Of a stretch of 64,000 nucleotides of DNA, positions 41,467 through 59,433 are shown one piece after another. Each line of letters begins with the position of its first letter. Position 1 is the first letter of the stretch. Location of the stretch: the NCBI RefSeq assembly GCF_900110125.1, contig NZ_FOCN01000001.1:62001-126000 (forward strand). The letters run 5' to 3'. A program made the position numbers and the translations under genes. The notes beneath the pieces were generated by a model. That model searched no databases and was not told the DNA's origin. It saw only the letters and a list, made by a program, of their open reading frames with translations. Source of the DNA: Cryobacterium luteum. GTDB taxonomy: Bacteria; Actinomycetota; Actinomycetes; Actinomycetales; Microbacteriaceae.

Positions 41467-41535
41467 TCCGGCGAACAGAACGGATCAGCCGGCGAACAGA
41501 ACGGGTCAGCCGGCGGCCATGGAACGGGTCAGCCG
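41467..41535. repeat. 21-bp tandem repeats between the xylB scar and ROK gene
   Basis: Units of CCGGCGAACAGAACGGATCAG type occur three times (the third with a small change, CCGGCGGCCATGGAACGGGTCAG) and a fourth begins at the ROK stop codon region. They probably arose by duplication of the 3' end of the ROK gene. Confidence 0.75.
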
Positions 41536-42725: not shown

Positions 42726-42812
42726 CAGGCAATTCAACCACACGAATCATTCGAACTCCGGTACTTTCCAAGCGGATGCCGCGGCACCGGCCGCCCACAT
42801 CGCCCGCGTCGG

Positions 42813-44072: not shown

Positions 44073-46235
44073 ATGCGCACGAAGCACGGACTTCGACTGC
44101 CCGTGGGGGTAGTGATGGCCACCCTGATGGTCGCCGCCCTCACCGCGACACCGGCCGCAGCCGCCCCCGGTGACACAGCACCCCCGGGCAAGCCCGGCAA
44201 ACCCAGCCCGACGGCCCCCACCGACTCGAGCTTTCAGAAAGTCACCCTCGACGCCACCCCGGGCGAGCCGCTCGACCTGGCCGTGCTGCCCAACAACGAC
44301 GTGTTGCACACCACCCGGGCCGGTGACATCTGGCTCAACGACGCAACGACGGGGCTCAACACGCTCGCCGCGACGATCGACGTGTACCAGCACGACGAGG
44401 AGGGCCTGCAGAGCATCGCCCTCGACCCGAAGTTCGGCACACCGGGCAACAACTGGATCTACCTGTATTACTCCGCTCCGCAGAACACGCCGCTCGACGA
44501 CCCCGCCACCGTAGGCGTGAACGAAGGCGACGCGCCGACCACCGGAACGGCGGCGGACTTCGCCCCGTTCGAGGGTTCGATCACGCTGTCCCGATTCCAG
44601 TTCGACGGCGCCGTGTTCGACCTCGCGAGCGAGCAGAACATCATGGAGGTCGACGTGGATCGCGGCATCTGCTGCCACGTCGGCGGAGACATCGTCTTCG
44701 ATGCGGCCGGCAACCTCTACCTCTCCACCGGCGACGATTCGAACCCGTTCTCGTCCGACGGTTTCACGCCCATCGACGAGCGGCTCGAGAGCAACCCGGC
44801 CTTCGACGCGCAGCGCAGTTCGGGCAACACCAATGACCTGCGCGGCAAGATTTTGCGTATCACTCCCGGCGTCGATGGCGGCTATACCATTCCGGAGGGC
44901 AATCTGTTCGCCCCGGGAACCGATCTCACTCGGCCGGAAATCTACGTGATGGGCATGCGCAATCCGTTCCGCATCGAGCTCAACCAGAAAACCGGTGAGC
45001 TCTACGTGGCCGATTACTCGCCCGACGCCCGCACCGCCGACCCCCTGCGGGGACCGGCCGGAACCGGCAAGTGGACGAGCATCACCGCGGCGTCGAACTA
45101 CGGCTGGCCGTACTGCGCCACCGCGGAGCTGCCCTATGTGGACTTCGACTTCGCCACCGGCATCTCGGGAGCGCCCTTCGACTGCGCCGCTCCCGTGAAC
45201 GACTCGCCCCGCAACACCGGCCTGCGCGAGCTGCCCCCCGTGGTGCAGCCCGACGTCTGGTACGGCTACGGCGAGTCCGCCGAGTTCCCGCAGCTGGAAA
45301 CCGGGGGCATCGGCCCGATGGCCGGCCCCGCGTATGTCTTCGACAAGAAGGCGTCAAAGGGAAAGGCATCCGTTGCCTGGCCCGAGTATTACGACGGCGT
45401 GTCCATGATGTACGAGTGGACCCGTGACTATATCAAGGGCATGACGCTCACCGACGGCGAGCTGGCCAAGATCGAGGCCGTGGTCGATTCGATCGTCGTC
45501 GACAACCCCATCGATATGGAGTTCGGCCCGAACGGCGCACTCTACGTACTCGAGTACGGCGACGGCTACTTCGCGCAGAACCCCGACGCGCAGCTCTCGC
45601 GCATCGACTTCGTGGGCGACCAGGGCAACCGTTCGCCCCTCCCGATGGCCGCCGGCACGCCCACCGCGGGCGCGTCACCGCTCACCGTGGAGTTCTCCAG
45701 CGAGGGAACCACCGACCCGGAGGGCGACAAGCTCAGCTACGCCTGGGACTTCGAGTCCGACGGAATCGTCGACTCGCGCGAACAGAATCCCACCCACACC
45801 TATGAGACCGACGGCGCGTTCACCGCCTCGCTGCAGGTGACGGATGCCGGCGGCAAGGACCGCGGTCGGTTCACCTCGGCCGAGGTCGAGATCGAGGTCG
45901 GCAACCAGGCACCGGTCGTGACCTTCATCACCCCGGTCGTCGGCCAGGACTTCGAGTTCGGCGACACGGTGGCCTACGAGATTCTCGTGACCGACGACCA
46001 GGCGGTCGACTGCTCGCTCGTGTCCGTGACCTACATTCTGGGTCACGACTCGCACGGCCACCCGATCACCACCTCCGGCGGCTGCACCGGAACCATCACC
46101 ACCACGGTTCCTTCCGGCCACAACCCGGAGACCGACGATCTGTCGGGCGTCTTCAACGCCTCCTACACGGATGCCGGCGGCGACTCCTCGGGACCGCTCA
46201 CCGGCAGTGCCGAAGTTGTTCTGCGCTCCAACTGA
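44073..46235 (+). CDS. Secreted PQQ-dependent-type sugar dehydrogenase (GSDH) with PKD domain
   Basis: A 720-residue exported protein. A Sec signal peptide ends near ATPAAAA (residue 31). Residues about 55-510 are a glucose/sorbosone dehydrogenase-like beta-propeller (LDLAVLPNNDVLHTTRAGDI, EEGLQSIALDPKFG, GDIVFDAAGNLYLSTGDD, MGMRNPFRIELNQKTGELY). A PKD domain follows at about 520-605 (YAWDFESDGIVDSREQNPTH), then a further beta-rich tail. It probably oxidises extracellular sugars or polyols. AACGAGGAGAAG precedes the ATG. It pairs with the TIM-barrel gene 38 bases downstream. Confidence 0.88.
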   Translation: MRTKHGLRLPVGVVMATLMVAALTATPAAAAPGDTAPPGKPGKPSPTAPTDSSFQKVTLDATPGEPLDLAVLPNNDVLHTTRAGDIWLNDATTGLNTLAATIDVYQHDEEGLQSIALDPKFGTPGNNWIYLYYSAPQNTPLDDPATVGVNEGDAPTTGTAADFAPFEGSITLSRFQFDGAVFDLASEQNIMEVDVDRGICCHVGGDIVFDAAGNLYLSTGDDSNPFSSDGFTPIDERLESNPAFDAQRSSGNTNDLRGKILRITPGVDGGYTIPEGNLFAPGTDLTRPEIYVMGMRNPFRIELNQKTGELYVADYSPDARTADPLRGPAGTGKWTSITAASNYGWPYCATAELPYVDFDFATGISGAPFDCAAPVNDSPRNTGLRELPPVVQPDVWYGYGESAEFPQLETGGIGPMAGPAYVFDKKASKGKASVAWPEYYDGVSMMYEWTRDYIKGMTLTDGELAKIEAVVDSIVVDNPIDMEFGPNGALYVLEYGDGYFAQNPDAQLSRIDFVGDQGNRSPLPMAAGTPTAGASPLTVEFSSEGTTDPEGDKLSYAWDFESDGIVDSREQNPTHTYETDGAFTASLQVTDAGGKDRGRFTSAEVEIEVGNQAPVVTFITPVVGQDFEFGDTVAYEILVTDDQAVDCSLVSVTYILGHDSHGHPITTSGGCTGTITTTVPSGHNPETDDLSGVFNASYTDAGGDSSGPLTGSAEVVLRSN

Positions 46236-46273: not shown

Positions 46274-47245
46274 ATGTGTTTCGGATTTGACGGAGCGAGT
46301 GAACTGAACAAGTCGCTCGAAGGCAAGAAGAACCTCAACCGCCGCAATTTTCTGCGCGGCGCACTCGCGGCCGGTGCCGGTGCCGGCCTCGCCGTGGCCG
46401 GCGCAAGCTCGGCCATGGCGGCGCCGGGCGGCCACCCGGGCCACGGTTTGGGAGGCAAGCCCGGCAAGGGCCGCAAGGTGCCGCCGGGACTGATCAGCAT
46501 CCAGCTGTACACGCTGCGCTCGATCATGAGCGGCGACGGCGTCGACGCCACGTTCGAGGCCCTCGCCGACTACGGCTATACCAAGGTGGAACTGGCCGGG
46601 CTCTACGGCCGTACCCCCGAGGCCATGCGGGCGTACCTCGACGAGCTCGGCATCACACCGAGCTCGAGCCACGACGGCATCAGCAATTCGCCCGCTGCGT
46701 TGCAGGCGAAGATCGCCGGCGCGGTGACCCTCGGCCAGACGTACATGAACGTGCCCTATCTGGCTTCGAGTGTGGCCGACGACTGGCGCCGGTGGGCTGA
46801 CCAGATGAACGCCGAGGCAGCCGTTGCGCAGAAAGCCGGGATCAAGTACGGCTACCACAACCACGCACACGAGTTCACGACCGACCTCGGTGGCGGGCTC
46901 ACCCCGTGGGAGGTCTTCACGTCCCGGCTCGACCCGAAGCTCGTGCACCTCGAGGTGGACCTGTACTGGGCTGTGACCGGCGGTGTGGGGGTCGGCGCGG
47001 CCGACCCGGTGCAGTTCGCGATCGACGTGATCACGGATGCGCCGCAGAAAGTGCTCGAGTACCACGTGAAGGACCGCGACGCGGCCGGCGGATTCGCCGA
47101 CCTCGGCACCGGCACGATCGACTTCGCGCGCATCTTCGACGCCCACCCGGTGAAGCTGTACGCAGTCGAGAACGACCAGCCCGACGTGACCGCGTTGCAG
47201 ACCGCGGAGGTGGGCTACAACTACCTGCGCGAACTGCGCTTCTAG
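46274..47245 (+). CDS. Tat-exported sugar phosphate isomerase/epimerase-like TIM-barrel protein
   Basis: A 323-residue protein. A twin-arginine signal is clear: NRRNFLRGALAAGAGAGLAV after a 20-residue N-terminal segment, ending near SAMAAPGG. The mature part is an AP-endonuclease-2/xylose-isomerase-like barrel (ISIQLYTLRSIM, KVELAGLYGRTPEAMRAYL, KYGYHNHAHEF, VHLEVDLYWAVTGG, VLEYHVKDRD), with His/Glu/Asp metal ligands in these strands. It is co-oriented with the sugar dehydrogenase; together they suggest periplasmic or cell-wall-side modification of a sugar or polyol. Confidence 0.88.
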   Translation: MCFGFDGASELNKSLEGKKNLNRRNFLRGALAAGAGAGLAVAGASSAMAAPGGHPGHGLGGKPGKGRKVPPGLISIQLYTLRSIMSGDGVDATFEALADYGYTKVELAGLYGRTPEAMRAYLDELGITPSSSHDGISNSPAALQAKIAGAVTLGQTYMNVPYLASSVADDWRRWADQMNAEAAVAQKAGIKYGYHNHAHEFTTDLGGGLTPWEVFTSRLDPKLVHLEVDLYWAVTGGVGVGAADPVQFAIDVITDAPQKVLEYHVKDRDAAGGFADLGTGTIDFARIFDAHPVKLYAVENDQPDVTALQTAEVGYNYLRELRF

Positions 47246-47393: not shown

Positions 47394-48782
47394 TTAGACG
47401 GGAACGGGCGCCGCGAGGCCGGCGAGCTGCAGGAGCAGGTCGCGCACCTCGGTGGCGGCGATGACCTCCCGGGCGGCAGCCGGGTCGGAGCAGAGCAGCA
47501 CGGGGCCGTCGGCGGCGCTCTCCGGCAGGCGCCCGTGGGAACCACGCACGCAGGAGGGATCGAGCGGCACTACGCGCATGGCGTAGCGCAGCCCCAGCTT
47601 CTTTTTGGCCAGGTTGCGGGCCGCTCGCAGCTTGACGAAGCGGTCGTCGGGGTCGAAGAACAGCTCGGCCGGGTCGTAGCCGGGTTTCTTGTGAATCTCC
47701 ACGCCGCGCGCGAAGTCCGGCGCTTGGGCGTCGTCAAGCCAGTAGTAGTAGGTGAACCATGCCCGCTTCTCGGCCACCACCACGAACTCACCACTCCGCT
47801 CATGGTCGAGGCCGTACCGGGCCTGACCCTCAGCATCGAGCACCTCGGCCACGCCGGGCAGCGCTTCGAGCAGTGCGTGCACGTGGGAAAGATCGGCGGG
47901 ATTCTGCACGTAGACGTGCGCGATCTGGTGGTCGGCGACGGCGAAAGCGCGCGACGTCCAGGGGTCGAGCAGCTCCCCGCTCGCATTCGTCTGAACCTCG
48001 AGCAGCCCCTCGCGGCGCAGCATCCGGTTCACGTCGACGGGCTGGTCGACGTTTGTGATGCCGTATTCGCTGAGCACCACGACGGTCACGCCCAGCCCGG
48101 CCGCATCATCGAGCAGCGGGGCGAGAACCCGGTCGAGCTCACGCGCGGCGTCGAAGGAGCGTGAGTCGTCGGGGCCGAACCGCTGCAGGTCGTAGTCGAG
48201 GTGCGGCACATAGACCAGGGTCAGGTCGTGGCCGGGCAACACGTGCCGGGCCGCGCCCACGATCCACTTCGAGGAGGCCAGGCCCGCGGTCGGACCCCAG
48301 TAGGTGAACAGCGGGAAGGCGCCGAGTTTCGCCACAAGTTCGTCGTGCAGCTCTGGCGGGCGGATGTAGGCATCCGGTGATTTGCGTCCGTCGGCGTGAT
48401 AGACCGGGCGGGGGGTGATCGTGACGTCGGTCGTGGCCCCCATGGCGTACCACCAGCACACGTTCGCCACCCGGTAGCCGGGATTACTGCGGCGAGCGGT
48501 CTCCCAGACCTTCGCTCCGCCGACCAGCCGGTTGTGCTGGCGCCAGAGGTTGACCTCGCCGATATCGCGCAGGTACCAGCCGTTGCCGACGATTCCGTGT
48601 TCGGCCGGCGTGAGTCCGGTGAGAAAGGTGGACTGCGCCGAGCAGGTCACGGCGGGCAGCACGGTGCCGAGCTCGGCCGAAAAGCCGCGGGCCGCGACGC
48701 CCTGCAGGTGCGGCATCACGGCGAGCAGCCGCGGGGTCAGCCCGGCGACATCGATCACGAGCAGCGGCGTGGGGCCGGTCAT
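47394..48782 (-). CDS. eboF: EboF-like alkaline phosphatase superfamily (nucleotide pyrophosphatase/phosphodiesterase) protein
   Basis: A 462-residue enzyme of the alkaline phosphatase superfamily. Metal and nucleophile motifs are visible: LLVIDVAGLTPRLL (first Asp), AVTCSAQSTFLTGLTPAEHG (Thr/Ser nucleophile region), VYVPHLDYDLQRFGPD (Asp/His) and VVVLSEYGITNVDQPVD (Glu/Tyr, a position often Asp-His). It hydrolyses a phosphodiester or pyrophosphate; the substrate is unknown. Its ATG overlaps the eboB stop (ATGA). It is the last gene of the ABC-monooxygenase-ebo operon. The ebo assignment comes from family plus gene company. Confidence 0.82.
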   Translation of the reverse strand: MTGPTPLLVIDVAGLTPRLLAVMPHLQGVAARGFSAELGTVLPAVTCSAQSTFLTGLTPAEHGIVGNGWYLRDIGEVNLWRQHNRLVGGAKVWETARRSNPGYRVANVCWWYAMGATTDVTITPRPVYHADGRKSPDAYIRPPELHDELVAKLGAFPLFTYWGPTAGLASSKWIVGAARHVLPGHDLTLVYVPHLDYDLQRFGPDDSRSFDAARELDRVLAPLLDDAAGLGVTVVVLSEYGITNVDQPVDVNRMLRREGLLEVQTNASGELLDPWTSRAFAVADHQIAHVYVQNPADLSHVHALLEALPGVAEVLDAEGQARYGLDHERSGEFVVVAEKRAWFTYYYWLDDAQAPDFARGVEIHKKPGYDPAELFFDPDDRFVKLRAARNLAKKKLGLRYAMRVVPLDPSCVRGSHGRLPESAADGPVLLCSDPAAAREVIAATEVRDLLLQLAGLAAPVPV

Positions 48783-49645
48783 GCGCGGGCACCGCGCATG
48801 ATGGAATTACCGGCGAATTCGGCGGGCGCGGCGGCATCCGCTTGCCTGGTCGGGTCGAGGTCGAGGCGGCCGCTCTGGCCGTAGAATTCCATCGGGTTGC
48901 GCCAGAGGATGCGGTCGACCGCGTCGTCGTCGAAGCCGGCGGCGAGCATGGCCTCGCCGGTGCGGCGCGTGGTGAGGGGGTCGCTGCGGCCCCAGTCGGC
49001 GGCCGAGTTGACGAGCACCCGGTCGAGCCCGATGTCGCGAAGCACCGCGACCATGCGGGTGGGGTCCATTTTGGTGTCGGGGTAGATGCTGAAGCCCATC
49101 CAGCAGCCGGAATCGACGACCTCGGGCACGGTGACCTCGTTGAGGTGGTCCACGACGACCATGCCGGGCGCGATGCCGCTCTCCCGCACCACGTCGAGGG
49201 TGCGGCGGGTGCCGGCGAGCTTATCCCGGTGCGGGGTGTGCACGAGTGCGGGCAGCTCGTGCGCCACGGCGAGCGCGAGCTGCGCGGCGAAGGCGTGGTC
49301 TTCCTGCGGGGTCATCGAGTCGTAGCCGAGTTCGCCGACCGCCACGACGCCGTCCTTTTCCAGGTAGCGCGGCATGATGTCGAGCACCCCGGTCAGGCGC
49401 GGGTCGCCGGCCTCCTTAGGGTTGAGGCCGATCGTGCAGAAGTGCCGGATGCCGAACTGGCTGGCCCGAAACGGCTCCCAGCCCACGAGGGCGTCGAAGT
49501 AGTCGATGAACGAGTCGACGCTCGTGCGCGGCTGACCGAGCCAGAAGGCCGGCTCCACGACCGCGCGCACCCCGGCGCCGTACATGGCCTCATAGTCGGC
49601 GGTCGTGCGGGAACTCATGTGAATGTGCGGGTCCAGGATGCGCAT
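48779..49645 (-). CDS. eboB: EboB-like TatD-family metal-dependent hydrolase
   Basis: A 288-residue TIM-barrel hydrolase. The first metal pair is DPHIHMSSRTT at 5-15. Others: HFCTIGLNPKEAG, VAVGELGYDSM (Glu ligand), ALVHTPHRDKLAGT (His), VVDHLNEVTVPEV (His) and VNSAADWGRSDPL (Asp). A strong AAGGAG lies 11 bases before ATG 49645, inside the end of eboA, which overlaps by 31 bases. TatD-like EboB is a standard member of ebo clusters; the reaction is not known. Confidence 0.86.
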   Translation of the reverse strand: MRILDPHIHMSSRTTADYEAMYGAGVRAVVEPAFWLGQPRTSVDSFIDYFDALVGWEPFRASQFGIRHFCTIGLNPKEAGDPRLTGVLDIMPRYLEKDGVVAVGELGYDSMTPQEDHAFAAQLALAVAHELPALVHTPHRDKLAGTRRTLDVVRESGIAPGMVVVDHLNEVTVPEVVDSGCWMGFSIYPDTKMDPTRMVAVLRDIGLDRVLVNSAADWGRSDPLTTRRTGEAMLAAGFDDDAVDRILWRNPMEFYGQSGRLDLDPTRQADAAAPAEFAGNSIMRGARA

Positions 49646-50367
49646 GTGTCGTTACTCCTTATATATATGTGAGGCTGCAGTTCAGCGAGCAGGGCCCCCG
49701 GAAGGTCCGGGCGGTGCAGGCACTCGGGGAAGGCGGCGACCACGGCGGCAATATCGTCGGGAATATCCCGGCCGGCGGCGCTGCGTTCGTGGGCGAGATC
49801 GACGAGCATGCGGGCGAGTTCGATGGTCTGCCGCTCGGCGAGATTCGCTATGACATTCAGTGGCACGCCGGTGAAGACGCACTTGACCACTGCCTGGCGG
49901 TACGCGTCGGGGCCGAGGTAGTATGCGCCATACGGTTGCAGGGCCGCTGCCACCAGGCGCACGTCATTGGTGCGCAGGGCGTCGTCGATGAGCGGGAGCA
50001 GGGCCGGGCCGATCGGTTGCTCCGCGGTGTCGAGCCGGTGCAGCCCGCGCAGCACGCCACGCTTCTCGCCGGCATCGCCGTGCTGGTACAGATCGTCGAG
50101 CAGCTCGACGAGCGCCGGGCCGATGGGGGTGAGAGCGCCCAGCAGCACGCCGCGCGCCGCGTCGTCGATCGTGCCGTGGCGCAGTCCCCGCACATCGTCA
50201 GCCCAGAGCGGCACCCGCCCGCAGCGCCGGGACACGGCGGGAAAGTACCGGGTGATGGCTGACGGATGCTGCTGCACATCGATGCAGGCGGCCGCCAGCC
50301 AGGTCGCTGCGTCGCCGGTGAGGTGGTGCGCGAGCGTGATCGCCGCGCCGGAGCCCGCGCCGGTCAT
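49615..50367 (-). CDS. eboA: EboA-domain protein
   Basis: A 250-residue helical protein matching the EboA family: LWADDVRGLRHGTIDDAARG, DAGEKRGVLRGLHRL, DDALRTNDVRLVAAALQPYG, YRQAVVKCVFTGVPLNVIA and LARMLVDLAHERSAAGRDIP. EboA defines the ebo gene clusters, first described in algae, their endosymbionts and diverse bacteria and needed for scytonemin pathway function in cyanobacteria; its reaction is unknown. The ATG overlaps the eboC stop (ATGA). The last residues (about HIYIRSNDT onward) are read through the ribosome-binding site and start of eboB, so the C-terminus is probably a late extension. Confidence 0.88.
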   Translation of the reverse strand: MTGAGSGAAITLAHHLTGDAATWLAAACIDVQQHPSAITRYFPAVSRRCGRVPLWADDVRGLRHGTIDDAARGVLLGALTPIGPALVELLDDLYQHGDAGEKRGVLRGLHRLDTAEQPIGPALLPLIDDALRTNDVRLVAAALQPYGAYYLGPDAYRQAVVKCVFTGVPLNVIANLAERQTIELARMLVDLAHERSAAGRDIPDDIAAVVAAFPECLHRPDLPGALLAELQPHIYIRSNDTCASWTRTFT

Positions 50368-51236
50368 GTGGCTGATACCCGTCGGGTGAGGCGCCGGCCG
50401 AGCGGGAGCAGGGTGGCGACGGCGAGGCCGGTTTTAACGGAACCGGAGCGTGCGATGAGCGCCGCCTGCAGGCCGATCGTTCCGATCACCGAAGCTCCGA
50501 CCGCCCGGCGCACGTCCGCGGCCGCGCGGGTGTTGCGGGCCCGCAGCTGGGCGGGGGCCACCGCGCCGAGGTAGGCGATGGCGAAGTAGGCCCCGACGAC
50601 CCGGGGCAGCCATCCGTTTGCGGGCCGCCGTGCCGGGCCGGCGGCAGCGGCCACGGCAGCGCAGGCCGTGGCCGCGACGGCCAGGGTGCCCACCACGGGG
50701 CTCGTCGAGCCGTGAACTTCGTCGCGGCTGAGGGTGGTAGTGCCGAGGGTGTGGGTAAACACGGTGAGCGCGGCGGGCAGGGCGGCCGGCACCGAGGCGG
50801 CGCCGAGCAGCACGTCGAGCAGTCGCGTGCCGGCCATTGCGACCGGGCCGAGCGAGGTGGATTTGAATACGAGGTCATAGGCCCAGACGCTCGCGGCGAG
50901 CGGGAGTGCGACGGCGAGGGCCTGCCGCCCGCCGGCCAGCGCTGCGATGCCGACGCCGCACGCGGTGAGCACGATGGCCACCGTGAGGGCCTCGGCTGGT
51001 GTCACGTCGCCGGCCGGAATCGGCCGTTCCGGGCGCTCCACCGCGTCGAGTGCCCGGTCGGCGTAGTCGTTCAGGGCCATGCCCGCCCAGTAGATGAGGG
51101 TGGAGCAGAGTGGAAGCAGCACGGTGTGCGGTCCGAGGGAACGCCCGGAGGCTGCGGCTCCGGCGAGGGTGTCGCCGGGCGCGGTGAGCGCGGCCGGGAG
51201 TCGCACGAGACGGGCGAAAGCGGCGGGGGTCATCAT
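50364..51236 (-). CDS. eboC: EboC-like UbiA-family prenyltransferase
   Basis: A 290-residue membrane enzyme of the UbiA fold with about eight helices. The first Asp-rich prenyl-diphosphate site is visible as MALNDYADRALDAVERPERP (NDxxDxxxD). The second is weaker (WAYDLVFKSTSLGP). It transfers a prenyl or related group to an unknown acceptor. The ATG overlaps the monooxygenase stop (ATGA) and its stop overlaps the eboA start. The family is also annotated in other actinobacteria beside EboA and TatD genes. Confidence 0.86.
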   Translation of the reverse strand: MMTPAAFARLVRLPAALTAPGDTLAGAAASGRSLGPHTVLLPLCSTLIYWAGMALNDYADRALDAVERPERPIPAGDVTPAEALTVAIVLTACGVGIAALAGGRQALAVALPLAASVWAYDLVFKSTSLGPVAMAGTRLLDVLLGAASVPAALPAALTVFTHTLGTTTLSRDEVHGSTSPVVGTLAVAATACAAVAAAAGPARRPANGWLPRVVGAYFAIAYLGAVAPAQLRARNTRAAADVRRAVGASVIGTIGLQAALIARSGSVKTGLAVATLLPLGRRLTRRVSAT

Positions 51237-53185
51237 GAGCGGCGCCCACTGGCTGCCACGCCGACCGGCGCATCAGCCAGGTTGTTCAGCACATTGTCGG
51301 GCCGGCGGTCCGGCCGGCTGTCCGCGCGACTGTCCGCCCGGCTGTCCGCCCGGCTGTCCGCCCGGCTGTCCGCCCGACCGAGCAGCGCGGTCATCGCGTC
51401 GAACAGGACGGCTTCGGGGTCGTCGGCGAGCCGGTGCGACCGCCAGCCGATGTGCTTGTCGGGCCGTACGAGCAGGGCGCCATCCTCGGCGACTTCGCGC
51501 AGTCGTGCCCAGTCGAAGTACAGGTCGGTCACCGGCTGCCCGGGTCCGATGATCACGGTCTCGAGCCGCACGCCGAGCCGCGCGCCCACTCGGGCCGCGG
51601 CATCCGCCCAGGCTGAGCCGGTGATTCCGGTGATCACTGTGAACTGCGTGAACGGTGCGAGGTCGTGGGTCGAGATCTTGTGCGCGCTGTCGCCCACCCA
51701 GGCGTGCGGCAGGCGGGAGCCCGGCACGGTCGAAGCCTGGTAATACAGTTCCGGGTCGCGTCGTGGCACGGGGCGAGCCGAACCGTCGGCGATGATGGCG
51801 GTCGATTCGTAGAACTGTCCGATCTCGACGCCGTGCGCGTTGAACTCGTAGTTCTTCACCTCCATCGCGTTCTGGATAGCCTGGCGTTTGGCTGCGCCAG
51901 CGGGGGTGTTCGCCTTTCGTTCCTCGATCATCTGGATCATCTCCGATTCGGTGCGGGCGTCGGTGACGCCGAGGGCGTCGAACAGCTGGCCGAACTCGCC
52001 AGCCGATTTGTTGGCCCGCAACACGATCTGCCGCGCTACCGGTGCCCGCTCCTCGGAGTAGGTGTCCAGCAGCTCGGGGCCGGCTGTGCCGGTCAGCACG
52101 GCGGCGAGCTTCCAGGCGAGGTTGTAGGAGTCCTGGATGGACGTGTTCGATCCCAGCCCGTTGCTCGGCGGATGCTTGTGCACCGCGTCGCCCACGCAGA
52201 ACACCCGCCCGCGCTGCAGCCGGGTGGCGTACTGGGCGTTGTTTCCCCAGAGCGACGTCCCGGTGATCGCCACCTCGAGCTCGGGCAGGCCGAGCAGATT
52301 GCGCACGATCTGCGTCGCCGCGGCCGTATCGATCACCGGCGCCGGTTGCGTGATGTCGTAGCCCCAGACGACGAGCCACTGGTTCCACGGCCGGATCATG
52401 CGCACCAGGCCCGTTCCGATACCGCCGATGTTCGACCCGGGCTGCACCACCCAGTACAGCACCGAGGGGCGATGCCCCACGAAGGGCGTGATATCTGCGG
52501 TGAAGGTGATGTTCATCGAGCCGGCGATATCCATCTCCCCTTCCATCGGCAGGTCGAGGTCGGCGGCGACCTGGGAGCGTGCTCCGTCGGCGCCGATCAA
52601 ATACTTCGCACGGATGCTGAACTCGAGACCCGTAAGCCGGTCCAGTACGTGCACGCTCACCCCCTCCGCGTCTTGCACGTGGGAGAGGTACTCCGTCGAG
52701 AACCTGGTCAGCGTTCCCCGTGTGGTGGCGTTCTTCACCAGGATGGGCTCGAGGTAGGTCTGTGGAATGTCGCACATGCTGGCGGCCGAGGCCAGTTCGT
52801 AGTCGGCGTGCCGGCCCGGATGCGTGCCGAAGGTGAGAATGCGCCCAAGTTCCTCGCCGGCGATCGAGGTGCAGAACACCGTGTCACCCATCATCTCGTT
52901 CGGCGTCGACTCGGCCCGCACCGCCGTTTCAATGCCGACGTCGCGAAAAATCTCCATCGTGCGCTGATTGGTGATGTGGGCGCGCGGCGTGTTGGCGGTC
53001 CACCGGTATTTGGTGATCATCAGGTTGGCGACGCCGAGGGTGGACAAAAACAGGGCTGCGGCGGATCCGGCCGGGCCGGATCCGACGATCAGTACCTCCG
53101 TCTGCACCTCGGTACCGTGCGGCAGGGCGGTCTCGCAGATCCCGTCGTCGAAGATCACCGGCACCCCGCTGCCCAGCACGGTCAC
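51233..53185 (-). CDS. TfdB-like FAD-dependent aromatic monooxygenase
   Basis: A 650-residue group A flavoprotein monooxygenase. FAD loop VLIVGSGPAGSAAALFL near 32; YLIGADGARSQVA; and GDAVHKHPPSNGLGSNTSIQ (near 318), which continues DSYNLAWKLA and is almost the 2,4-dichlorophenol/phenol hydroxylase signature. A C-terminal thioredoxin-like domain is expected from the length. It hydroxylates an aromatic or phenolic compound using NAD(P)H and O2. The C-terminus has a RADS repeat (51311-51378). GTG start overlaps the permease stop; its stop overlaps eboC. Confidence 0.88.
   Translation of the reverse strand: MTVLGSGVPVIFDDGICETALPHGTEVQTEVLIVGSGPAGSAAALFLSTLGVANLMITKYRWTANTPRAHITNQRTMEIFRDVGIETAVRAESTPNEMMGDTVFCTSIAGEELGRILTFGTHPGRHADYELASAASMCDIPQTYLEPILVKNATTRGTLTRFSTEYLSHVQDAEGVSVHVLDRLTGLEFSIRAKYLIGADGARSQVAADLDLPMEGEMDIAGSMNITFTADITPFVGHRPSVLYWVVQPGSNIGGIGTGLVRMIRPWNQWLVVWGYDITQPAPVIDTAAATQIVRNLLGLPELEVAITGTSLWGNNAQYATRLQRGRVFCVGDAVHKHPPSNGLGSNTSIQDSYNLAWKLAAVLTGTAGPELLDTYSEERAPVARQIVLRANKSAGEFGQLFDALGVTDARTESEMIQMIEERKANTPAGAAKRQAIQNAMEVKNYEFNAHGVEIGQFYESTAIIADGSARPVPRRDPELYYQASTVPGSRLPHAWVGDSAHKISTHDLAPFTQFTVITGITGSAWADAAARVGARLGVRLETVIIGPGQPVTDLYFDWARLREVAEDGALLVRPDKHIGWRSHRLADDPEAVLFDAMTALLGRADSRADSRADSRADSRADSRPDRRPDNVLNNLADAPVGVAASGRRS
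51311..51378 (-). repeat. 12-bp in-frame repeats at the monooxygenase C-terminus
   Basis: GGCTGTCCGCCC-type units repeat about five times and encode RADSRADSRADSRADSRADS followed by RPDRRPD. The repeat lies in a likely disordered tail beyond the last recognisable domain. Confidence 0.88.
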
Positions 53186-54216
53186 TTGCTGCGGCTGCCG
53201 CGGGAGGCGAAACGCTGTTGCAGCAGCACGGCGGCCACGATGATGACGCCCTTCGCCACGTTCTGCACCGAGGTGGAGAGATTGTTCTGGGTGAAGACGT
53301 TGGTGAGCGTGCTGAAGATGAGTATTCCGAGCACGGATCCCACGATGGTGCCGCGGCCGCCGATGAGCAGGGTGCCGCCCACCACGACGGCCGCAATCAC
53401 GTCGAGCTCAAGGAGCGTGCCGTGCGTCGAGGTACCGACCGTGGTGCGACCGAGGAACATGACCCCGGCGATGCCGGCGGTGAGGCCCGAGAGCATGTAG
53501 ACGTACACCATGTGGCGCTTCACCTTGATGCCGGCGAGGCGGCTCGCCTCGGCATTGCCGCCGACGGCCACGGTGCGGCGGCCAAAGGTGGTGCGGTTGA
53601 GCAGAATCCAGCCGGCCACCGCCACGATTATGAAGATCCAGATCAGAATGGGCACGCCGAGCAGGTCGGCGCGAAAGAAGCCCATAAATTCCTGGTTGTT
53701 CACGATCTGGGTCGACCGGTTCGAGATGAGTTCGGCGAGGCCGCGCGCGCCCACGAGCATGGCGAGCGTCGCCATGAACGCCACGACGCCTCCGTAGGCG
53801 ATCACCACGCCGTTCACGAAGCCGGCCAGGGTGCCGACGAGAAGCGCGACCACGACGATCAGCAGCCAGGACGACTGCGCGGAGGCGAGCTGCACCGCGG
53901 TGAGGCTCGCCACCACGCTCGACAGGCCCACCACGGAACCTACCGACAGGTCGATGCCTCCGGCCGTGATGACGAAGGTCATTCCGACGCAGACCACGCC
54001 GACGATCGAGGCGAAGCGGATGATGGTGACGAAGTTGTCGAAACTGGCGAACCGGTCGCCCGCGGTGAGGATTCCCACCACGATCAACAGCGCGAAGGCG
54101 ATGACCAGCCCGAGGTTGCGGCCGGCCGAGCCGGCGAGCATCCGCTTGACGATGCCGGGTCGGGTGTCGGGCGTAACGGGGGTCGGCGGGGCCGGCTGGG
54201 TGATCTGCTCGCTCAT
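53182..54216 (-). CDS. Sugar-type ABC transporter permease (RbsC-like)
   Basis: A 344-residue permease with about ten helices. Family motifs: FVITAGGIDLSVGSVVGLSS, NGVVIAYGGVVAFMATLAML, VGGNAEASRLAGIKVKRHMV and VVVGGTLLIGGRGTIVGSVLG. It belongs to the ribose/xylose/inositol importer group (BPD_transp_2). The ATG overlaps the ATPase stop (ATGA) and its stop overlaps the monooxygenase GTG, tying import to oxidation in one transcript. Confidence 0.93.
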   Translation of the reverse strand: MSEQITQPAPPTPVTPDTRPGIVKRMLAGSAGRNLGLVIAFALLIVVGILTAGDRFASFDNFVTIIRFASIVGVVCVGMTFVITAGGIDLSVGSVVGLSSVVASLTAVQLASAQSSWLLIVVVALLVGTLAGFVNGVVIAYGGVVAFMATLAMLVGARGLAELISNRSTQIVNNQEFMGFFRADLLGVPILIWIFIIVAVAGWILLNRTTFGRRTVAVGGNAEASRLAGIKVKRHMVYVYMLSGLTAGIAGVMFLGRTTVGTSTHGTLLELDVIAAVVVGGTLLIGGRGTIVGSVLGILIFSTLTNVFTQNNLSTSVQNVAKGVIIVAAVLLQQRFASRGSRSK

Positions 54217-55733
54217 GCGGCACTTCCTCTCATGACCAGGTCGAGAACACCGGGTTCGTCGATGTCGGTGGAATTCGTTGTGGTAAGAACGTCGCCGTCG
54301 CTGATGACCAGCACGCGATCAGCCAGGCCGAGCACCTCGTCGATCTCGCTGGAGACCACGATGATGGCGGTACCGGCCTCGGCGAGGCGGCGAATGAGGG
54401 CGTAGATCTCGGCGCGGGCACCGACATCCACCCCGCGAGTCGGTTCGTCGAGCAAGAGCACCGTGGTGCCGTGCACGAGCCACCGTGCGAGCAAAATCTT
54501 CTGCTGGTTTCCCCCGGACAGGCTGCGGGTCGTCAGGTTGGGATCGGGCGGCCGCAGCTCCAGGGCCTCGATTTGTTGTCGGGCGGCGTCGCGTTCAGCG
54601 CCCTCCCGCAGAAAACCGCCGCGAGCGAACCGGGCGAAGGATGACAGGGTGACGTTCTTGAAGATGGGTTCGTCGAGGATGAGGCCCTGGCTCTTGCGTT
54701 CCTCGGGCGAGAGGCCGATGCCGGCGCTGACCGCCGCGTCGACCGAGCCGGGGCGCAGCACCGTTCCGTTCACGGTGACCGTGCCGCTCGTGCTGCGGCG
54801 GGCACCGTAGATGGCCTCGAGAATTTCGGAGCGGCCGGAGCCGACCAGACCGGCGAGACCGACGATCTCGCCCGCGCGCACCTCGAGGGACACGTTGCGG
54901 AAGACGCCGCGCACGCCGAGCGCGTCGCAGCGCAGCACGATGGGCGCATCCGTCGGCAGCGGAGTGGACTGCGGAAAGACGTTGGCGACCTCACGACCGG
55001 TCATCAAGCGGATCAGGTGTGGCGTGGGAGTATCGGCCACGCTCAGGCCCGAGGCCGTGGTCTTGCCGTCTTTGATCACGGTGATGCGGTCGCCGATGCG
55101 GCGGATCTCCGCGAGCCGATGGGAGATGTAGACCACGGCGATGCCCTGCTCGGTGAGCTCGGCGACGACGCGGAACAGGTTCTCCACTTCCTGGGAGTCG
55201 AGCACCGCGCTGGGTTCGTCCATGATGATCAGCTTGGTGTCGCGGCTCAGCGCCCGAGCCATGCTCACGATCTGCTTGTTCGCGGCCGAAAGCTGGCCCA
55301 CTTCGGTGCGCGGTGAGATCTCGCTGTGGCCGAGCCGCGCGAGGATCTGTTGCGTTCGGGCGTTGGCGGAGGCGACGTGCAGCACGCCGCCGGTGGCCTG
55401 CTCGTGGCCGAGAAAGACGTTCTCCGCGATGGTGAGGCCGTCGACCACGTCGAGTTCCTGGTACATCGTGGCGATGCCGAGTTCGAGGGCGGCCACCGGG
55501 CCACCGATGGTGACCGGCTCGCCCTGCCAGAAGATCTCGCCGGAGTCGGGCTGATAAGCGCCGGAGAGGGTCTTGATGAGGGTGGATTTTCCGGCACCGT
55601 TCTGGCCGAGCACGCAGTGCACCTCGCCGGGCCGCACCACCAGATCGACGCCCTGAAGCGCCTTCACCCCGGCGAAACTCTTTCTTAGCCCGCGAACTTC
55701 GAGTAATGCTGCGGAATGGTCGACAGTGATCAT
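54213..55733 (-). CDS. Sugar-type ABC transporter ATPase with two nucleotide-binding domains (RbsA-like)
   Basis: A 506-residue duplicated ATPase. NBD1: Walker A GQNGAGKST near 43, signature-like QLSAANKQIVSMARAL, Walker B LIIMDEPSAVLD. NBD2: GLVGSGRSEILEAI (degenerate Walker A), LSGGNQQKILLARWL, LLLDEPTRGVDVG. This arrangement is typical of CUT2 importers for ribose, xylose or inositol. First gene of the seven-gene minus-strand operon; a 192-base divergent region separates it from the binding-protein gene. Confidence 0.93.
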   Translation of the reverse strand: MITVDHSAALLEVRGLRKSFAGVKALQGVDLVVRPGEVHCVLGQNGAGKSTLIKTLSGAYQPDSGEIFWQGEPVTIGGPVAALELGIATMYQELDVVDGLTIAENVFLGHEQATGGVLHVASANARTQQILARLGHSEISPRTEVGQLSAANKQIVSMARALSRDTKLIIMDEPSAVLDSQEVENLFRVVAELTEQGIAVVYISHRLAEIRRIGDRITVIKDGKTTASGLSVADTPTPHLIRLMTGREVANVFPQSTPLPTDAPIVLRCDALGVRGVFRNVSLEVRAGEIVGLAGLVGSGRSEILEAIYGARRSTSGTVTVNGTVLRPGSVDAAVSAGIGLSPEERKSQGLILDEPIFKNVTLSSFARFARGGFLREGAERDAARQQIEALELRPPDPNLTTRSLSGGNQQKILLARWLVHGTTVLLLDEPTRGVDVGARAEIYALIRRLAEAGTAIIVVSSEIDEVLGLADRVLVISDGDVLTTTNSTDIDEPGVLDLVMRGSAA

Positions 55734-55925
55734 GCAAAAAACCTAACACAGGGTCGGTACTTACGTCGATGAACATCAATAAGTTGCGCGCAAACTGTCA
55801 CCATCTGCTATCGTTCAACTCGTCAGCGTCGACGCCTTCCCAATTGTTCGACAATTGCCTCGCACGATCGCCGGCAGCACCACACTCCTGCACCTGCAGC
55901 CATTCACCGAGCCAGAGGGAATCAC
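55734..55925. promoter_or_regulatory. Divergent control region of the ABC/ebo and binding-protein operons
   Basis: Two dyads stand out. TTGCGCGCAA at 55784-55793 is a perfect palindrome of the LacI-operator type. CAATTGTTCGACAATTG at 55841-55857 is a perfect 7+3+7 dyad suited to a GntR, LacI or similar dimer. They lie between the ATPase start (55733) and the binding-protein start (55926), so one regulator could control both directions. No regulator gene is adjacent. Confidence 0.5.
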
Positions 55926-56969
55926 ATGCTTGCACCCCGCACTGTCCGTCGCAGACTTCTTTTCGCCGCCGGCACCTCGCTGGCCGTCGTCGGCCTCATC
56001 ACCGGCTGCACGGCCGGTACCGCCACGAACACGCAGCCCACCAACGCCAGCGTCGAGGGCAACGAAGCGCAGGGCGACACCATCGTCATCGGCTATTCAG
56101 GGCCCGCCGCCGACCACGGCTGGCTCGGTGCCATCAACAATGCGGCGATCGCCGAGGCCGACAAGTACGACGACATCGACCTGCGGGTGGCGGAGGGCAC
56201 CAACGACGCCAACCTGCAGATCAGCCAGGTTGAAGGCTTCATCAACGATGGCGTCGATGCCATCGTGCTGCTGCCCACCGACGGCGCCGCGCTGACCCAG
56301 GTAGCCATCCGCGCTATGGAGGCCGGCATCCCGGTGATCAACGTGGACCGCGAGTTCTCCAGCACCTTCGCCGCCCGCGCCACCATCCTCGGTGACAATT
56401 ACGGCATGGGCGTCAGCGCCGGCACCTACATCTGCGAGGAACTCAGCGACAACCCCGACGCCGTGGTCGCCGAGATCGCCGGCATCGACTCGCTCCCCCT
56501 GACCCAGGAGCGCAGCGCCGGCTTCGAGCAGGCACTCGGCGACTGCGGTCTGTCGGTCACCAACCGCGTCTCCGCCGACTTCACCGTGGCGGGCGGCGAG
56601 GCCACCACCTCGCAGCTGCTCGCCGCCGCCCCGCAGATCGACGCCCTCTGGAACCACGATGATGACCAGGGAATCGGCGTACTCGCGGCCATCGACGCCG
56701 CCGGGCGCGACGAGTTCATCATGGTCGGCGGTGCCGGATCCGCCAACGCCATGCGCCTGATCCAGGCCGGTGACAGCGTGATGAAGGCCACCGTGGTGTA
56801 TCCGTCCACCCAGGCGGCCGACGGCATCCGTCTGGCCCGCCTGCTCGTGCAAAACAAGGCCATGAGCGACCTTGTCGAGGTGGAGATCCCCAACCGGATC
56901 GTGCTCAACGCCCCCGTGGTGACCAGCGAGAACGTGGATAAGTATCTGCCGACCGCCTTCGAGTCCTAA
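55926..56969 (+). CDS. Sugar-type ABC transporter substrate-binding lipoprotein (RbsB-like)
   Basis: A 347-residue receptor with a basic N-terminus and lipobox ITGC (Cys28). The periplasmic-binding-protein-like fold is shown by TIVIGYSGPAADHGWLGAIN, INDGVDAIVLLPTDGAALTQ, AGIPVINVDREFSS, and QIDALWNHDDDQGIGVLAAI. Asp/Arg residues in these segments resemble ligand contacts of ribose/inositol receptors. AGAGGGA precedes the ATG. It serves the permease and ATPase encoded divergently. Confidence 0.93.
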   Translation: MLAPRTVRRRLLFAAGTSLAVVGLITGCTAGTATNTQPTNASVEGNEAQGDTIVIGYSGPAADHGWLGAINNAAIAEADKYDDIDLRVAEGTNDANLQISQVEGFINDGVDAIVLLPTDGAALTQVAIRAMEAGIPVINVDREFSSTFAARATILGDNYGMGVSAGTYICEELSDNPDAVVAEIAGIDSLPLTQERSAGFEQALGDCGLSVTNRVSADFTVAGGEATTSQLLAAAPQIDALWNHDDDQGIGVLAAIDAAGRDEFIMVGGAGSANAMRLIQAGDSVMKATVVYPSTQAADGIRLARLLVQNKAMSDLVEVEIPNRIVLNAPVVTSENVDKYLPTAFES

Positions 56970-56985: not shown

Positions 56986-57016
56986 ACGGGGAGCAAGCCG
57001 GTCTTGCTCCCCGTGA
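56986..57016 (+). terminator. Strong hairpin between binding protein and oxidoreductase genes
   Basis: A perfect 13-bp stem CACGGGGAGCAAG (56986-56998) / CTTGCTCCCCGTG (57004-57016) with a 5-base loop. It lies 17 bases after the binding-protein stop and 23 bases before the next ATG, with no T-run. It probably stabilises the 3' end of the highly expressed binding-protein mRNA or partially terminates. Confidence 0.7.
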
Positions 57017-57039
57017 CCATCAACAGGAAGAGTTTTCAC

Positions 57040-58230
57040 ATGAGCGCACCGCTTCGCGTCGCACTGGTCGGCCACGGATTCATGGGTGCCGCGCACTCCC
57101 AGGGCTGGCGCGTCGCCCCTCGCTTCTTCGACCTGGCCGCGCAGCCCGAGATGAGCGTTCTCGTGGGGCGCGACGCCGGGCAAGCGGCGGAGGCCGCCAC
57201 CCGCTGGGGCTGGGCCGAGTCGTCCTCCGACTGGCGGGCGGTGATCGACCGGCCGGATATCGACGTGATCGACATCGTCACCCCCGGCACGTCACACGCC
57301 GAGATCGCGATCGCCGCGCTCGACGCGGGCAAACACGTTTTGTGCGAAAAGCCGCTCGCCAACACGGTCGCCGAGGCCGAGGCGATGGCGGATGCCGCCG
57401 CTCGCGCCTTCGACCGAGGCGTGTACGCCATGGTCGGGTTCACCTATCGGCGAATTCCTGCCGCCACACTCGCCCGCGATTTTGTCGCCGCCGGCAAGAT
57501 CGGCGACATTCGTCAGGTGCGGGTGAACTACCTGCAGGACTGGCTGGTCGACCCGCAATCTCCGCTCACCTGGCGTCTGCAGAAGGAGCTCGCCGGCTCC
57601 GGGGCACTGGGCGATATCGGCGCCCACGCCATCGACCTCGCCCAGTTCATCACCGGGCAACGGCTCGAGAGCGTTTCGGGCATCATCGAGACGATCGTGA
57701 AGGAACGCCCGCTGCTGGGTGCCCGGCAGGGACTCTCCGGCACCGGCACCGCCGAGCGCGGCCTCGTGACCGTGGACGATCTGGCCCTGTTCACCGGCCG
57801 GTTCGAGGGCGGCGCGCTCGGCAGCTTCGAGGCCACACGCTTTTGCACCGGCCGCAAGAATTCCTTCCGCATCGAGGTTTCCGGCTCGACGGGCGCGATC
57901 TCGTTCGACCTGGAAGACCTCAACGATCTGAGCTTCTTCGACGGGAACGCCGCGAGCGGGCAGCAAGGGTTCACCAAGATTCTGGTGACCGAGCCGCAGC
58001 ATCCGTATCTGGCCGCCTGGTGGCCGCCCGGGCATACGCTCGGCTATGAGCACGGTTTCACCCACCAGGCCAGGGACTTTGTCGAGGCCATCTCGGCTGG
58101 CCGGCAGCCGACCCCGTCGTTCGCCGACGGCCTGCAGGTGCAGCAGGTGCTCGCCGCCGTGGAGGCCAGCTCCAACAATGGAAGCGCCTGGACGCCCACC
58201 CTCACCCCTGTGCTCGCCGCACAGAAATAG
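57040..58230 (+). CDS. Gfo/Idh/MocA-family oxidoreductase
   Basis: A 396-residue NAD(P)-dependent dehydrogenase of sugars or inositols. Rossmann motif [17 protein letters not shown] at about 7-23, [20 protein letters not shown] and the conserved EKPLANT (Lys of the catalytic EKP). The catalytic-helix segment reads [16 protein letters not shown], with the expected Asp/His. CAGGAAG precedes ATG 57040. Between the binding protein and the TIM-barrel isomerase, it probably oxidises the imported compound. Confidence 0.92.
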
Positions 58231-58256: not shown

Positions 58257-59261
58257 ATGGCCCGCCCAATCACCCTGTTCACCGGCCAGTGGGCCGACCT
58301 GCCCTTCGAAGAAGTTGCGCGGCTCGCCGCCGGGTGGGGCTACGACGGGCTGGAGATCGCCTGCTGGGGCGACCATCTCGACCCCAATCGCTGGAACGAC
58401 ACCGACTACGTCGCCGGCAAGCTCGCCGTACTCGAGAAGTACAACCTGAAGGTGTGGGCCATCTCCAACCACCTCAAAGGTCAAGCCGTCTGTGACGACC
58501 CGATCGACTCGCGGCACCGCGACATTCTGCCCGACTCGATCTGGGGCGACGGCGACCCGGAGGGCGTGCGCCAACGCGCCGCCGAGGAGATGAAGAACAC
58601 CGCCCGGCTCGCCGCGAAACTCGGCGTGAAGACGGTCATCGGGTTCACCGGATCGTCGATCTGGAAGTACGTGGCCATGTTCCCGCCCGTTTCGCAGGAG
58701 CTCATCGATGCCGGCTATCAGGACTTCGCCGACCGGTGGAACCCGATCCTCGACGTGTTCGATGAGGTCGGCGTGCGCTTCGCCCACGAGGTGCACCCGA
58801 GTGAGATCGCCTTCGACTATTGGACGACGGAGCGCGCCCTCGAAGCCATCGGGCATCGCCCCGCGTTCGGCCTGAACTGGGACCCGAGCCATTTCATCTG
58901 GCAGGACCTCGACCCGGTCAGCTTTCTCTGGGATTTTCGCGATCGCATCTATCACGTGGATTGCAAAGACACCAAGAAGCGCCTGAACAACGGCCGCAAC
59001 GGCCGACTCGGCTCACTGCTGGCCTGGGCCGACCCGCGCCGCGGCTGGGACTTCATCTCCACCGGCCACGGGGACGTACCCTGGGAGGACAGTTTTCGCA
59101 TGCTCAGCACCATCGGCTATGACGGCCCGCTCTCGGTGGAATGGGAGGACGCCGGAATGGACCGCCTGGTCGGAGCTCCCGAAGCACTCGCCTTCGTGCG
59201 GTTGCTCGCCTTTGACGCACCGACCGCGGCGTTCGATGCGGCGTTCAGCACCCGTCGCTGA
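58257..59261 (+). CDS. Sugar phosphate isomerase/epimerase-family TIM-barrel protein
   Basis: A 334-residue AP-endonuclease-2-like barrel. Metal-ligand strands are visible: [60 protein letters not shown] and [16 protein letters not shown] lies 6 bases before the ATG. Last gene of the binding protein-oxidoreductase-isomerase operon. Members with this company act in polyol, inositol or glycoside catabolism; the substrate is not readable. Confidence 0.9.
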
Positions 59262-59433
59262 CGATTCGCGTGCGCCGCGGCATCCGTTGTTCGCTGCCCC
59301 CCATTCGGGCGGGCCGAGCAGTGCTCCCAGCCAGCTCCCAGCCAGTCTGAACCGGACCGTTAGGCAGGGCCGCTAACGTCGTAGGCAACGGCTGCTTCGG
59401 CGGCGCAGCAACGAACGAACGGTGAACTCCCGC

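Follow-up and report, generated by a model that had tools for sequence, protein, structure and literature searches.

The ebo gene cluster analyzed here lies in a 64,000-nucleotide stretch of Cryobacterium luteum contig NZ_FOCN01000001.1 (positions 62,001 to 126,000; hereafter the window). A cluster composed of a monooxygenase (MOX), a UbiA-superfamily prenyltransferase, EboA, EboB and EboF, without the cyclase, the TIM-barrel isomerase (X) and EboE of other actinobacteria, was found in the window and in two further species, Cryobacterium sp. PH31-L1 (G584) and a third Cryobacterium species represented by genome G1185. Among the 73 ebo loci compared in a presence matrix, the UbiA-EboA-EboB-EboF pattern was unique to these three. 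Gene content and comparison suggest a derived ebo cluster, in which a hydroxylated phenol may have taken the place of a cyclitol as the ring source while the UbiA-EboA-EboB-EboF module was retained; we give this reading a probability of roughly 0.45.

Gene content of the cluster

The cluster is part of a string of seven genes, all on the minus strand. The string begins with the ATPase (54213-55733; AraG/RbsA-like, two ABC domains) and the permease (53182-54216; AraH/RbsC-like, BPD_transp_2) of a sugar-type ATP-binding cassette (ABC) importer. It continues with MOX, a flavin adenine dinucleotide aromatic-ring hydroxylase (51233-53185; FAD_binding_3 and Rng_hyd_C), an EboC-like UbiA-superfamily prenyltransferase of the SCO3242 family (50364-51236), an EboA domain protein predicted to be all-helical (49615-50367), EboB, a TatD-like metal hydrolase (48779-49645; TatD_DNase), and EboF, a type I phosphodiesterase/nucleotide pyrophosphatase (47394-48782; PF01663). 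According to the open reading frame (ORF) calls in the window, the overlaps from the ATPase to EboF are 4, 4, 4, 4, 31 and 4 nucleotides. The ORF coordinates agree with the initial annotation, made from the sequence alone, which had described seven co-directional genes joined by 4-nucleotide overlaps, with 31 nucleotides at eboA/eboB. Its family assignments hold by profile scores, and the ebo genes are real: homologs of EboA, EboB, EboC and EboF are clustered in the window, the EboA domain scores 147 bits (cut-off 50), and the prenyltransferase scores 331 bits with the SCO3242-family model (cut-off 260) and 144 bits with the EboC model (cut-off 250). The prenyltransferase retains the NDxxD motif (as NDYADRALD) and the YxxxxK motif (as YDLVFK), including the Asp-rich motif of the SCO3242 family. 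The designation of the hydroxylase as TfdB-like, acting on aromatic rings, was right in kind, its best solved relatives being 2-hydroxybiphenyl 3-monooxygenase (610 bits) and 2,4-dichlorophenol monooxygenase (486 bits).

Loss of the cyclase, X and EboE

We profile-searched 73 ebo stretches, namely 70 from outside Cryobacterium, the window and those of the two other Cryobacterium species. Searches for the EboA domain gave matches in 3 of 100 and 16 of 398 genomes of the family (15 of the 16 above the cut-off), in 48 of 396 of the order and in 18 of 396 of the phylum, these samples overlapping each other. Of 41 new EboA-containing genomes at the order level, 40 were taken in and G883 was left out, and a locus with a sub-threshold EboA match (L071, genome G774) held no ebo gene and was removed ahead of counting.

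The order MIPS-like cyclase, UbiA, X, EboA, EboB, EboE, EboF was found in 63 of the 70 loci outside Cryobacterium, the cyclase belonging to PF07994/PF01658 (inositol-phosphate-synthase-like, here "MIPS"). The seven exceptional loci are four at contig ends (L121, L132, L134 and L136), one apparently broken (L045), a second copy in a genome with a full cluster (L033) and one in which the cyclase alone is missing (L105). EboE was detected in all 70, although split in L045, while EboD had no match in any of the 73 stretches. Thus the absence of eboD is the normal state for the actinobacterial ebo loci examined, and we rejected its loss as the novelty of the locus. The remark in the initial annotation that eboD and eboE are missing is correct for both genes, but the unusual part is the absence of the cyclase, X and EboE at the locus.

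The genome to which the window belongs (3.83 Mb, 99.9% complete) has no match to the EboE model NF035939, and EboE is also absent from both other carriers. Since EboE is missing from the cluster and from the genome, we speak of a variant and not of an ordinary ebo member. No sugar-phosphate cyclase of the EboD or MIPS type was found within the window's ebo cluster, and the MIPS family had no match in the 41 Cryobacterium genomes examined, which are a sample of the genus. PF01761 has a single match in the window genome; its ORF scores 147 bits with the EboD model, compared with 553 to 664 bits for nine plasmid-borne EboD proteins (seven of them the set from which the model was built), and is therefore most likely the housekeeping AroB. 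X is absent in all three carriers at the locus, which is where it was searched for. EboE occurs in two of the 41 genomes (G1183 and G1159), neither a carrier of the variant cluster. These lone EboE-family genes (L235, 9339-10547, and L236) stand outside ebo clusters, with ebo neighbors absent from the 20 kb around them; the one in L235 has as neighbors zinc-type alcohol dehydrogenase-like ORFs, judged from their translations, and a sugar permease.

In a tree of UbiA, EboB and EboF, the trio forms a clade (support 1.0) nested within the canonical clusters (0.974) and apart from the other clusters of its own family. The nesting inside canonical clusters indicates that the variant arose by loss, and the ancestral canonical cluster was probably received by horizontal transfer. 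The ancestral type is the actinobacterial MIPS-type cluster, found for example on Streptomyces plasmids, where it is named inositol-3-phosphate synthase - SCO3242 prenyltransferase - isomerase - EboA - TatD - EboE - pyrophosphatase. Cryobacterium has the shared genes in the same order, but it has lost the cyclase, X and EboE and has gained MOX.

The ebo operon eboABCDEF has been described in cyanobacteria, Bacteroidetes and eustigmatophyte plastids (PMC5133447, PMC6282210), and ebo genes have been reported in the actinobacterium Saccharomonospora (PMC9235831). Adjacent EboA, EboB, a UbiA-type EboC and EboF are common to that operon and to the Cryobacterium cluster, whereas the latter lacks EboD and EboE, contains a monooxygenase and, in two species, has a sugar importer in the gene string. 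EboB matched in 52 plasmid records; in the 16 that we read (L238-L253), we found EboD in nine clusters, the MIPS type in six, neither within the stretch in one and both in none, and the two types of cyclase appear to replace each other. The MIPS type is annotated by NCBI as "inositol-3-phosphate synthase" in Streptomyces and haloarchaea, and one representative scored 240 bits with the archaeal myo-inositol-1-phosphate synthase versus 28 bits with the mycobacterial one.

The monooxygenase and its relatives

MOX lies directly upstream of UbiA, in the slot that the MIPS-like cyclase occupies in canonical clusters. Its orthologs in the two other Cryobacterium species are 89% and 85% identical to it, which makes 3 of the 41 genomes, all with the ebo core, and its ratio of nonsynonymous to synonymous substitution rates (dN/dS) of 0.11-0.16 indicates purifying selection. 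Near the C-terminus of MOX (about 51296-51376), an in-frame 12-bp repeat encoding ADSR units is present in about five copies, versus about one in PH31-L1.

In a pattern scan covering genomes from 84,980 species, 156 relatives of MOX were detected, the best 80 of which comprise that of PH31-L1 and 79 others, the latter 66-78% identical. No ebo gene was found in the stretches around these 79, which reach at most 10 kb on each side and in some cases end at contig ends. One locus (L220) without a called MOX gene stood outside the neighbor counts (n = 78), and neighbor families were named from one member each. Within 5 kb of the relatives, we observed an intradiol dioxygenase in 65 cases, an iron alcohol dehydrogenase in 63 and an AraC-type regulator in 56. 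The direct order MOX, iron alcohol dehydrogenase (maleylacetate-reductase-like), intradiol dioxygenase was present in 60 of the 78 non-ebo loci, and ten had neither the dehydrogenase nor the dioxygenase in the stretch. This order is the layout of hydroxyquinol (resorcinol-type) pathways, and MOX shares its hydroxylase family with such operons. A known case is the rol operon of Corynebacterium glutamicum, which serves resorcinol catabolism via 1,2,4-trihydroxybenzene (PMC7764795); the shared family was judged via the operons of the 66-78% identical relatives and not by direct comparison with the C. glutamicum enzyme. In contrast to the rol operon, the Cryobacterium MOX has no adjacent dioxygenase or maleylacetate reductase and has a prenyltransferase beside it instead. 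None of the three carriers has PF04444, the family of the ring-cleaving intradiol dioxygenase by which the hydroxylase product is normally consumed; one of the 41 genomes of the genus has it. We infer that MOX yields a di- or trihydroxylated ring which would not be degraded but handed on, most simply to the adjacent UbiA.

Conservation of the retained genes

The cluster could also be decaying, part of the pathway being lost and nothing specific being made any more. Three of seven genes are gone, and EboA, the least constrained (76% and 65% identical, dN/dS 0.27 and 0.39), evolves faster than the rest. However, the frames that were retained are open in the three species, and their conserved sites are kept: the three variants retain 149 of 153 positions in EboF, 110 of 113 in EboB, 20 of 20 in EboA and 43 of 46 in UbiA, a conserved position being one kept in at least 95% of canonical loci. 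UbiA, EboB and EboF (dN/dS 0.08-0.19), as well as MOX, are under clear purifying selection. Because conserved residues are kept and dN/dS is low, the ebo genes of the window look functional, and we regard decay as very unlikely. The EboA model is all-helical (mean predicted local distance difference test, pLDDT, 74.8), and a search of the PDB gave generic helical-repeat matches only, none at E <= 0.001. The UbiA model was too poor for use (mean pLDDT 52.8), and a PDB search with a canonical UbiA gave no match.

We also considered translational coupling as a special feature of the locus and rejected it, close overlaps being usual at other ebo junctions. Indeed, in actinobacterial ebo loci, a start giving a 4-nucleotide overlap is possible at 56 of 63 MIPS/UbiA, 59 of 66 UbiA/X, 61 of 70 EboE/EboF and 42 of 69 X/EboA junctions, and is rarer at EboA/EboB (13 of 73) and EboB/EboE (9 of 70); short overlaps are a common trait of the ebo gene family. 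The 31-nucleotide EboA/EboB overlap does not occur in PH31-L1, which has a 53-nucleotide gap at the same junction. The end of the window's EboA gene (49615-49645) runs into eboB and encodes a C-terminus unlike that of PH31-L1, a difference that would explain the overlap. In G1185, UbiA and EboA do not overlap, the nearest start being 28 nucleotides downstream. An Rfam search of the window gave no match.

The importer and the divergent operon

Upstream of the ATPase gene, a divergent promoter region (55734-55925) separates the string from a second operon on the plus strand. This operon encodes a sugar-type substrate-binding protein (the receptor; 55926-56969), a levoglucosan-dehydrogenase-like Gfo/Idh/MocA dehydrogenase (57004-58230) and TIM58, an AP_endonuc_2 TIM barrel (58257-59261) with the solved relatives 2zds and 8ro4, the latter a 2-hydroxy-3-keto-glucal hydratase. 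The full two-operon layout, including the divergent receptor, is common to the window and PH31-L1, and the promoter regions of the two are identical at 172 of 189 aligned bases. The region contains a perfect palindrome, CAATTGT-TCG-ACAATTG (55841-55857), which has no second match in the window when up to three mismatches are allowed; it is kept in PH31-L1 (L060/L141), was not found in the G1185 stretch and is a possible ROK or LacI operator. The G1185 stretch examined has no Rbs-type importer, receptor, Gfo/Idh or TIM barrel, the rest of that genome not having been searched for the importer; a MalEFG-type importer, judged by reading, is nearby.

The importer stands beside ebo in two of the three carriers and is therefore not a constant partner. 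The proposal in the initial annotation that the ebo genes are locked to uptake does not hold for the G1185 stretch examined, and its expectation that the ABC-monooxygenase-ebo order recurs in relatives is borne out by the whole two-operon arrangement of PH31-L1 but not, for the importer part, beside the G1185 ebo genes. Nor are the receptor and Gfo/Idh, which it had placed in an import-and-modify pathway, an explanation of the missing genes, since homologs of both adjoin canonical ebo clusters of other families in 8 of the other 70 loci. Homologs of the permease were found in 7 of these loci, of TIM58 in 10 and of ROK regulators in 18. Downstream of EboF, on the plus strand, lie a TIM-barrel protein with a twin-arginine translocation (TAT) signal (46274-47245), which is probably secreted, and a glucose/sorbosone-dehydrogenase (GSDH) protein with a PKD domain (44073-46235) and a signal peptide read by eye; many actinobacterial MIPS-type loci have homologs of the two (31 and 24 of the 70 loci, respectively). 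The receptor, Gfo/Idh, permease, TIM58, TAT-signal TIM barrel, GSDH and ROK families were all absent from 79 control stretches, which are MOX neighborhoods and thus a convenience sample, not a random one; the profiles for the TIM barrels and ROK regulators derive from ebo-locus members and are biased toward matches there. The ABC ATPase is not enriched near ebo (6 of 70 versus 3 of 79 controls, p 0.31). Sugar or glycoside uptake and oxidation is a recurrent companion of ebo, not special to the Cryobacterium locus, and we rejected the idea that the importer or the TIM barrels stand in for the lost genes, both coexisting elsewhere with MIPS, X and EboE.

Two ROK-type regulators (41529-42743 and 37349-38674) lie beyond the GSDH gene; the first, a candidate regulator, is 97% identical to its counterpart at the matching place in PH31-L1. 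A DsbA-like protein with a CPIC motif (59422-60312; label from reading alone) adjoins TIM58 and is 84% identical to one in the same place in L141.

Two alternatives start from these neighbors. One is that cyclitol synthesis was replaced by importer uptake of a ready-made cyclitol or glycoside, with MOX on a side branch. It would account for an importer that in two species shares its gene string with MOX and ebo and adjoins the divergent operon of receptor, Gfo/Idh and TIM barrel, for the conserved promoter region and palindrome, and for a Gfo/Idh whose relatives are inositol- and levoglucosan-dehydrogenases. However, the same genes are missing in G1185, where the stretch examined does not contain that importer, and the recurrence of receptor and Gfo/Idh next to canonical clusters indicates that import can go together with a retained cyclase. 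We consider this explanation unlikely.

The other is that the importer, Gfo/Idh and TIM58 form a unit for levoglucosan or glycoside catabolism that is co-regulated with its neighbors, MOX being detoxifying or catabolic and the ebo remnant making its usual product from an unlinked ring supply. Levoglucosan loci described in the literature bring together Gfo/Idh, PF01261 proteins, ABC transporters and ROK regulators (PMC10066097), and the window resembles levoglucosan and 3-keto-glycoside loci in its Gfo/Idh and its TIM-barrel eliminase/hydratase-like protein, as well as, for the former, in the ABC importer (PMC10066097, PMC10628242). It differs from them in that its Gfo/Idh scores 364 bits with the levoglucosan-dehydrogenase (LgdA) model, under the curated cut-off of 650, and is joined to ebo. 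The relationship of TIM58 to a 3-keto-glucal hydratase fits the catabolic unit. Against it, the lack of MIPS in the 41 genomes and the single, probably AroB, PF01761 cyclase leave no obvious unlinked supplier of the ring, and MOX accompanies the ebo core in all three genomes, one of which has no catabolic unit beside it. This explanation seems to us somewhat improbable.

A proposed route and the points against it

It has been proposed that EboD forms a cyclitol which EboC prenylates (PMC5133447, PMC6282210). Under the switch from cyclitol to phenol that we favor, an ancestor with the usual actinobacterial set (MIPS-like cyclase, UbiA/EboC, X, EboA, EboB, EboE and EboF) would have lost its cyclase, X and EboE, which presumably form and modify the cyclitol, and would have recruited, upstream of the prenyltransferase, a phenol hydroxylase from the hydroxyquinol (resorcinol-type) pathway. 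MOX would hydroxylate a resorcinol-like phenol, imported or internal, and EboC would attach a prenyl chain to the hydroxylated ring. The hydrolysis and phosphate removal that ebo clusters have in common would fall to EboB and EboF, EboA may act as a helical-repeat helper (model confidence 75), and the prenylated product would be exported or dealt with at the membrane. The gene string would be transcribed as one unit, and in two of the three species its ABC importer may take up the phenol or a glycoside of it, from which the phenol may be released via a 3-keto-glycoside route formed by Gfo/Idh and the TIM barrel.

The prenyltransferase itself offers a weak hint. In the loop after its first Asp-rich motif, the PSGR of all 63 canonical sequences is PAGD in the three variants (Ser75 to Ala, Arg77 to Asp), and of the 40 clades listed, the trio has the smallest p value for a surplus of conserved UbiA positions that changed uniformly (nominal 0.035 without correction; 0.050 for the next clade). 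The change weakly fits a changed acceptor.

Several observations weigh against our interpretation. Ubi-297, an EboC-type farnesyltransferase and the UbiA-type enzyme of an ebo cluster of marine Flavobacteria, was assayed with farnesyl diphosphate and gave products with 6 of 14 acceptors, including quinoline acids, which it prefers, and 1,3-dihydroxynaphthalene, and, as reported there, none with phenols or catechols (PMC9235831). MIPS-type clusters outside actinobacteria have PSGR in Halobaculum, PSGE in Halocatena, PAGE in Natronococcus and PSGA in Gemmatirosa; three of the four lack PSGR, and Arg77 is therefore not tied to the cyclase as such. A link between Arg77 and a phosphorylated acceptor, which actinobacteria fit (63 of 63) and three of the four others do not, is therefore kept as a weak hint only. 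The three carriers form one clade, hence one event, and L033 and L105 have no neighboring MIPS, yet they also have no MOX. In G1185, a 222-amino-acid ORF (L232, 9513-10181), hydrophobic by look, separates MOX from UbiA. EboA was searched in ten Cryobacterium genomes and was present in two, so that a core without MOX may exist elsewhere in the genus. Finally, PF04444 is the sole family tested as a possible consumer of the MOX product, extradiol enzymes and maleylacetate reductase being outside the search.

Implications for ebo clusters

The ebo genes are spread over bacteria, archaea and algal plastids. In Nostoc, mutants have shown that they serve the transfer of a scytonemin precursor to the periplasm (PMC6282210). 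In the loci we examined, the EboD type was found in a cyanobacterium, Bacteroidota, Proteobacteria and Deinococcus, MIPS-type cyclases in actinobacteria, haloarchaea and Gemmatimonadota, and the phenol hydroxylase in Cryobacterium. The use of a MIPS-type cyclase in place of EboD in actinobacteria and haloarchaea independently supports a cyclitol as the normal ring. Neither MIPS-type ebo clusters nor the Cryobacterium variant were found described in the literature searched, which did not include subscription papers and preprints, and the word "inositol" is absent from the main texts of three ebo papers (PMC5133447, PMC9235831, PMC6282210).

A broader, doubtful extension is that ebo is a modular machine with constant EboC, EboB and EboF, usually EboA, and three alternative ring sources, whose exported prenylated ring would be a lipid-bound cofactor or electron acceptor of secreted oxidoreductases. 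If true, this would explain the occurrence of ebo near GSDH or ScyD/ScyE proteins, pyrroloquinoline quinone (PQQ) dehydrogenases, cytochrome c and multicopper oxidases in unrelated phyla. By annotation and without a control, extracytoplasmic-type redox proteins were seen near ebo in Streptomyces camelliae (ScyD/ScyE family and a multicopper oxidase), in Salipiger (a PQQ dehydrogenase), in Ketogulonicigenium (cytochrome c and a dehydrogenase) and in three others (ferritin-like proteins); such neighbors lie at L248 5096-6298 and 15814-17322, L244 7418-9565 and L239 14083-16833, and also in L240, L241 and L243.

The natural swap of the supposed ring-making enzymes for a phenol hydroxylase would narrow the options for the substrate of EboC. 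The variant suggests that the ebo machinery may accept different rings, which would provide a handle for finding its product, and with it one could test directly the idea that the ebo core serves as a ring-plus-prenyl carrier.

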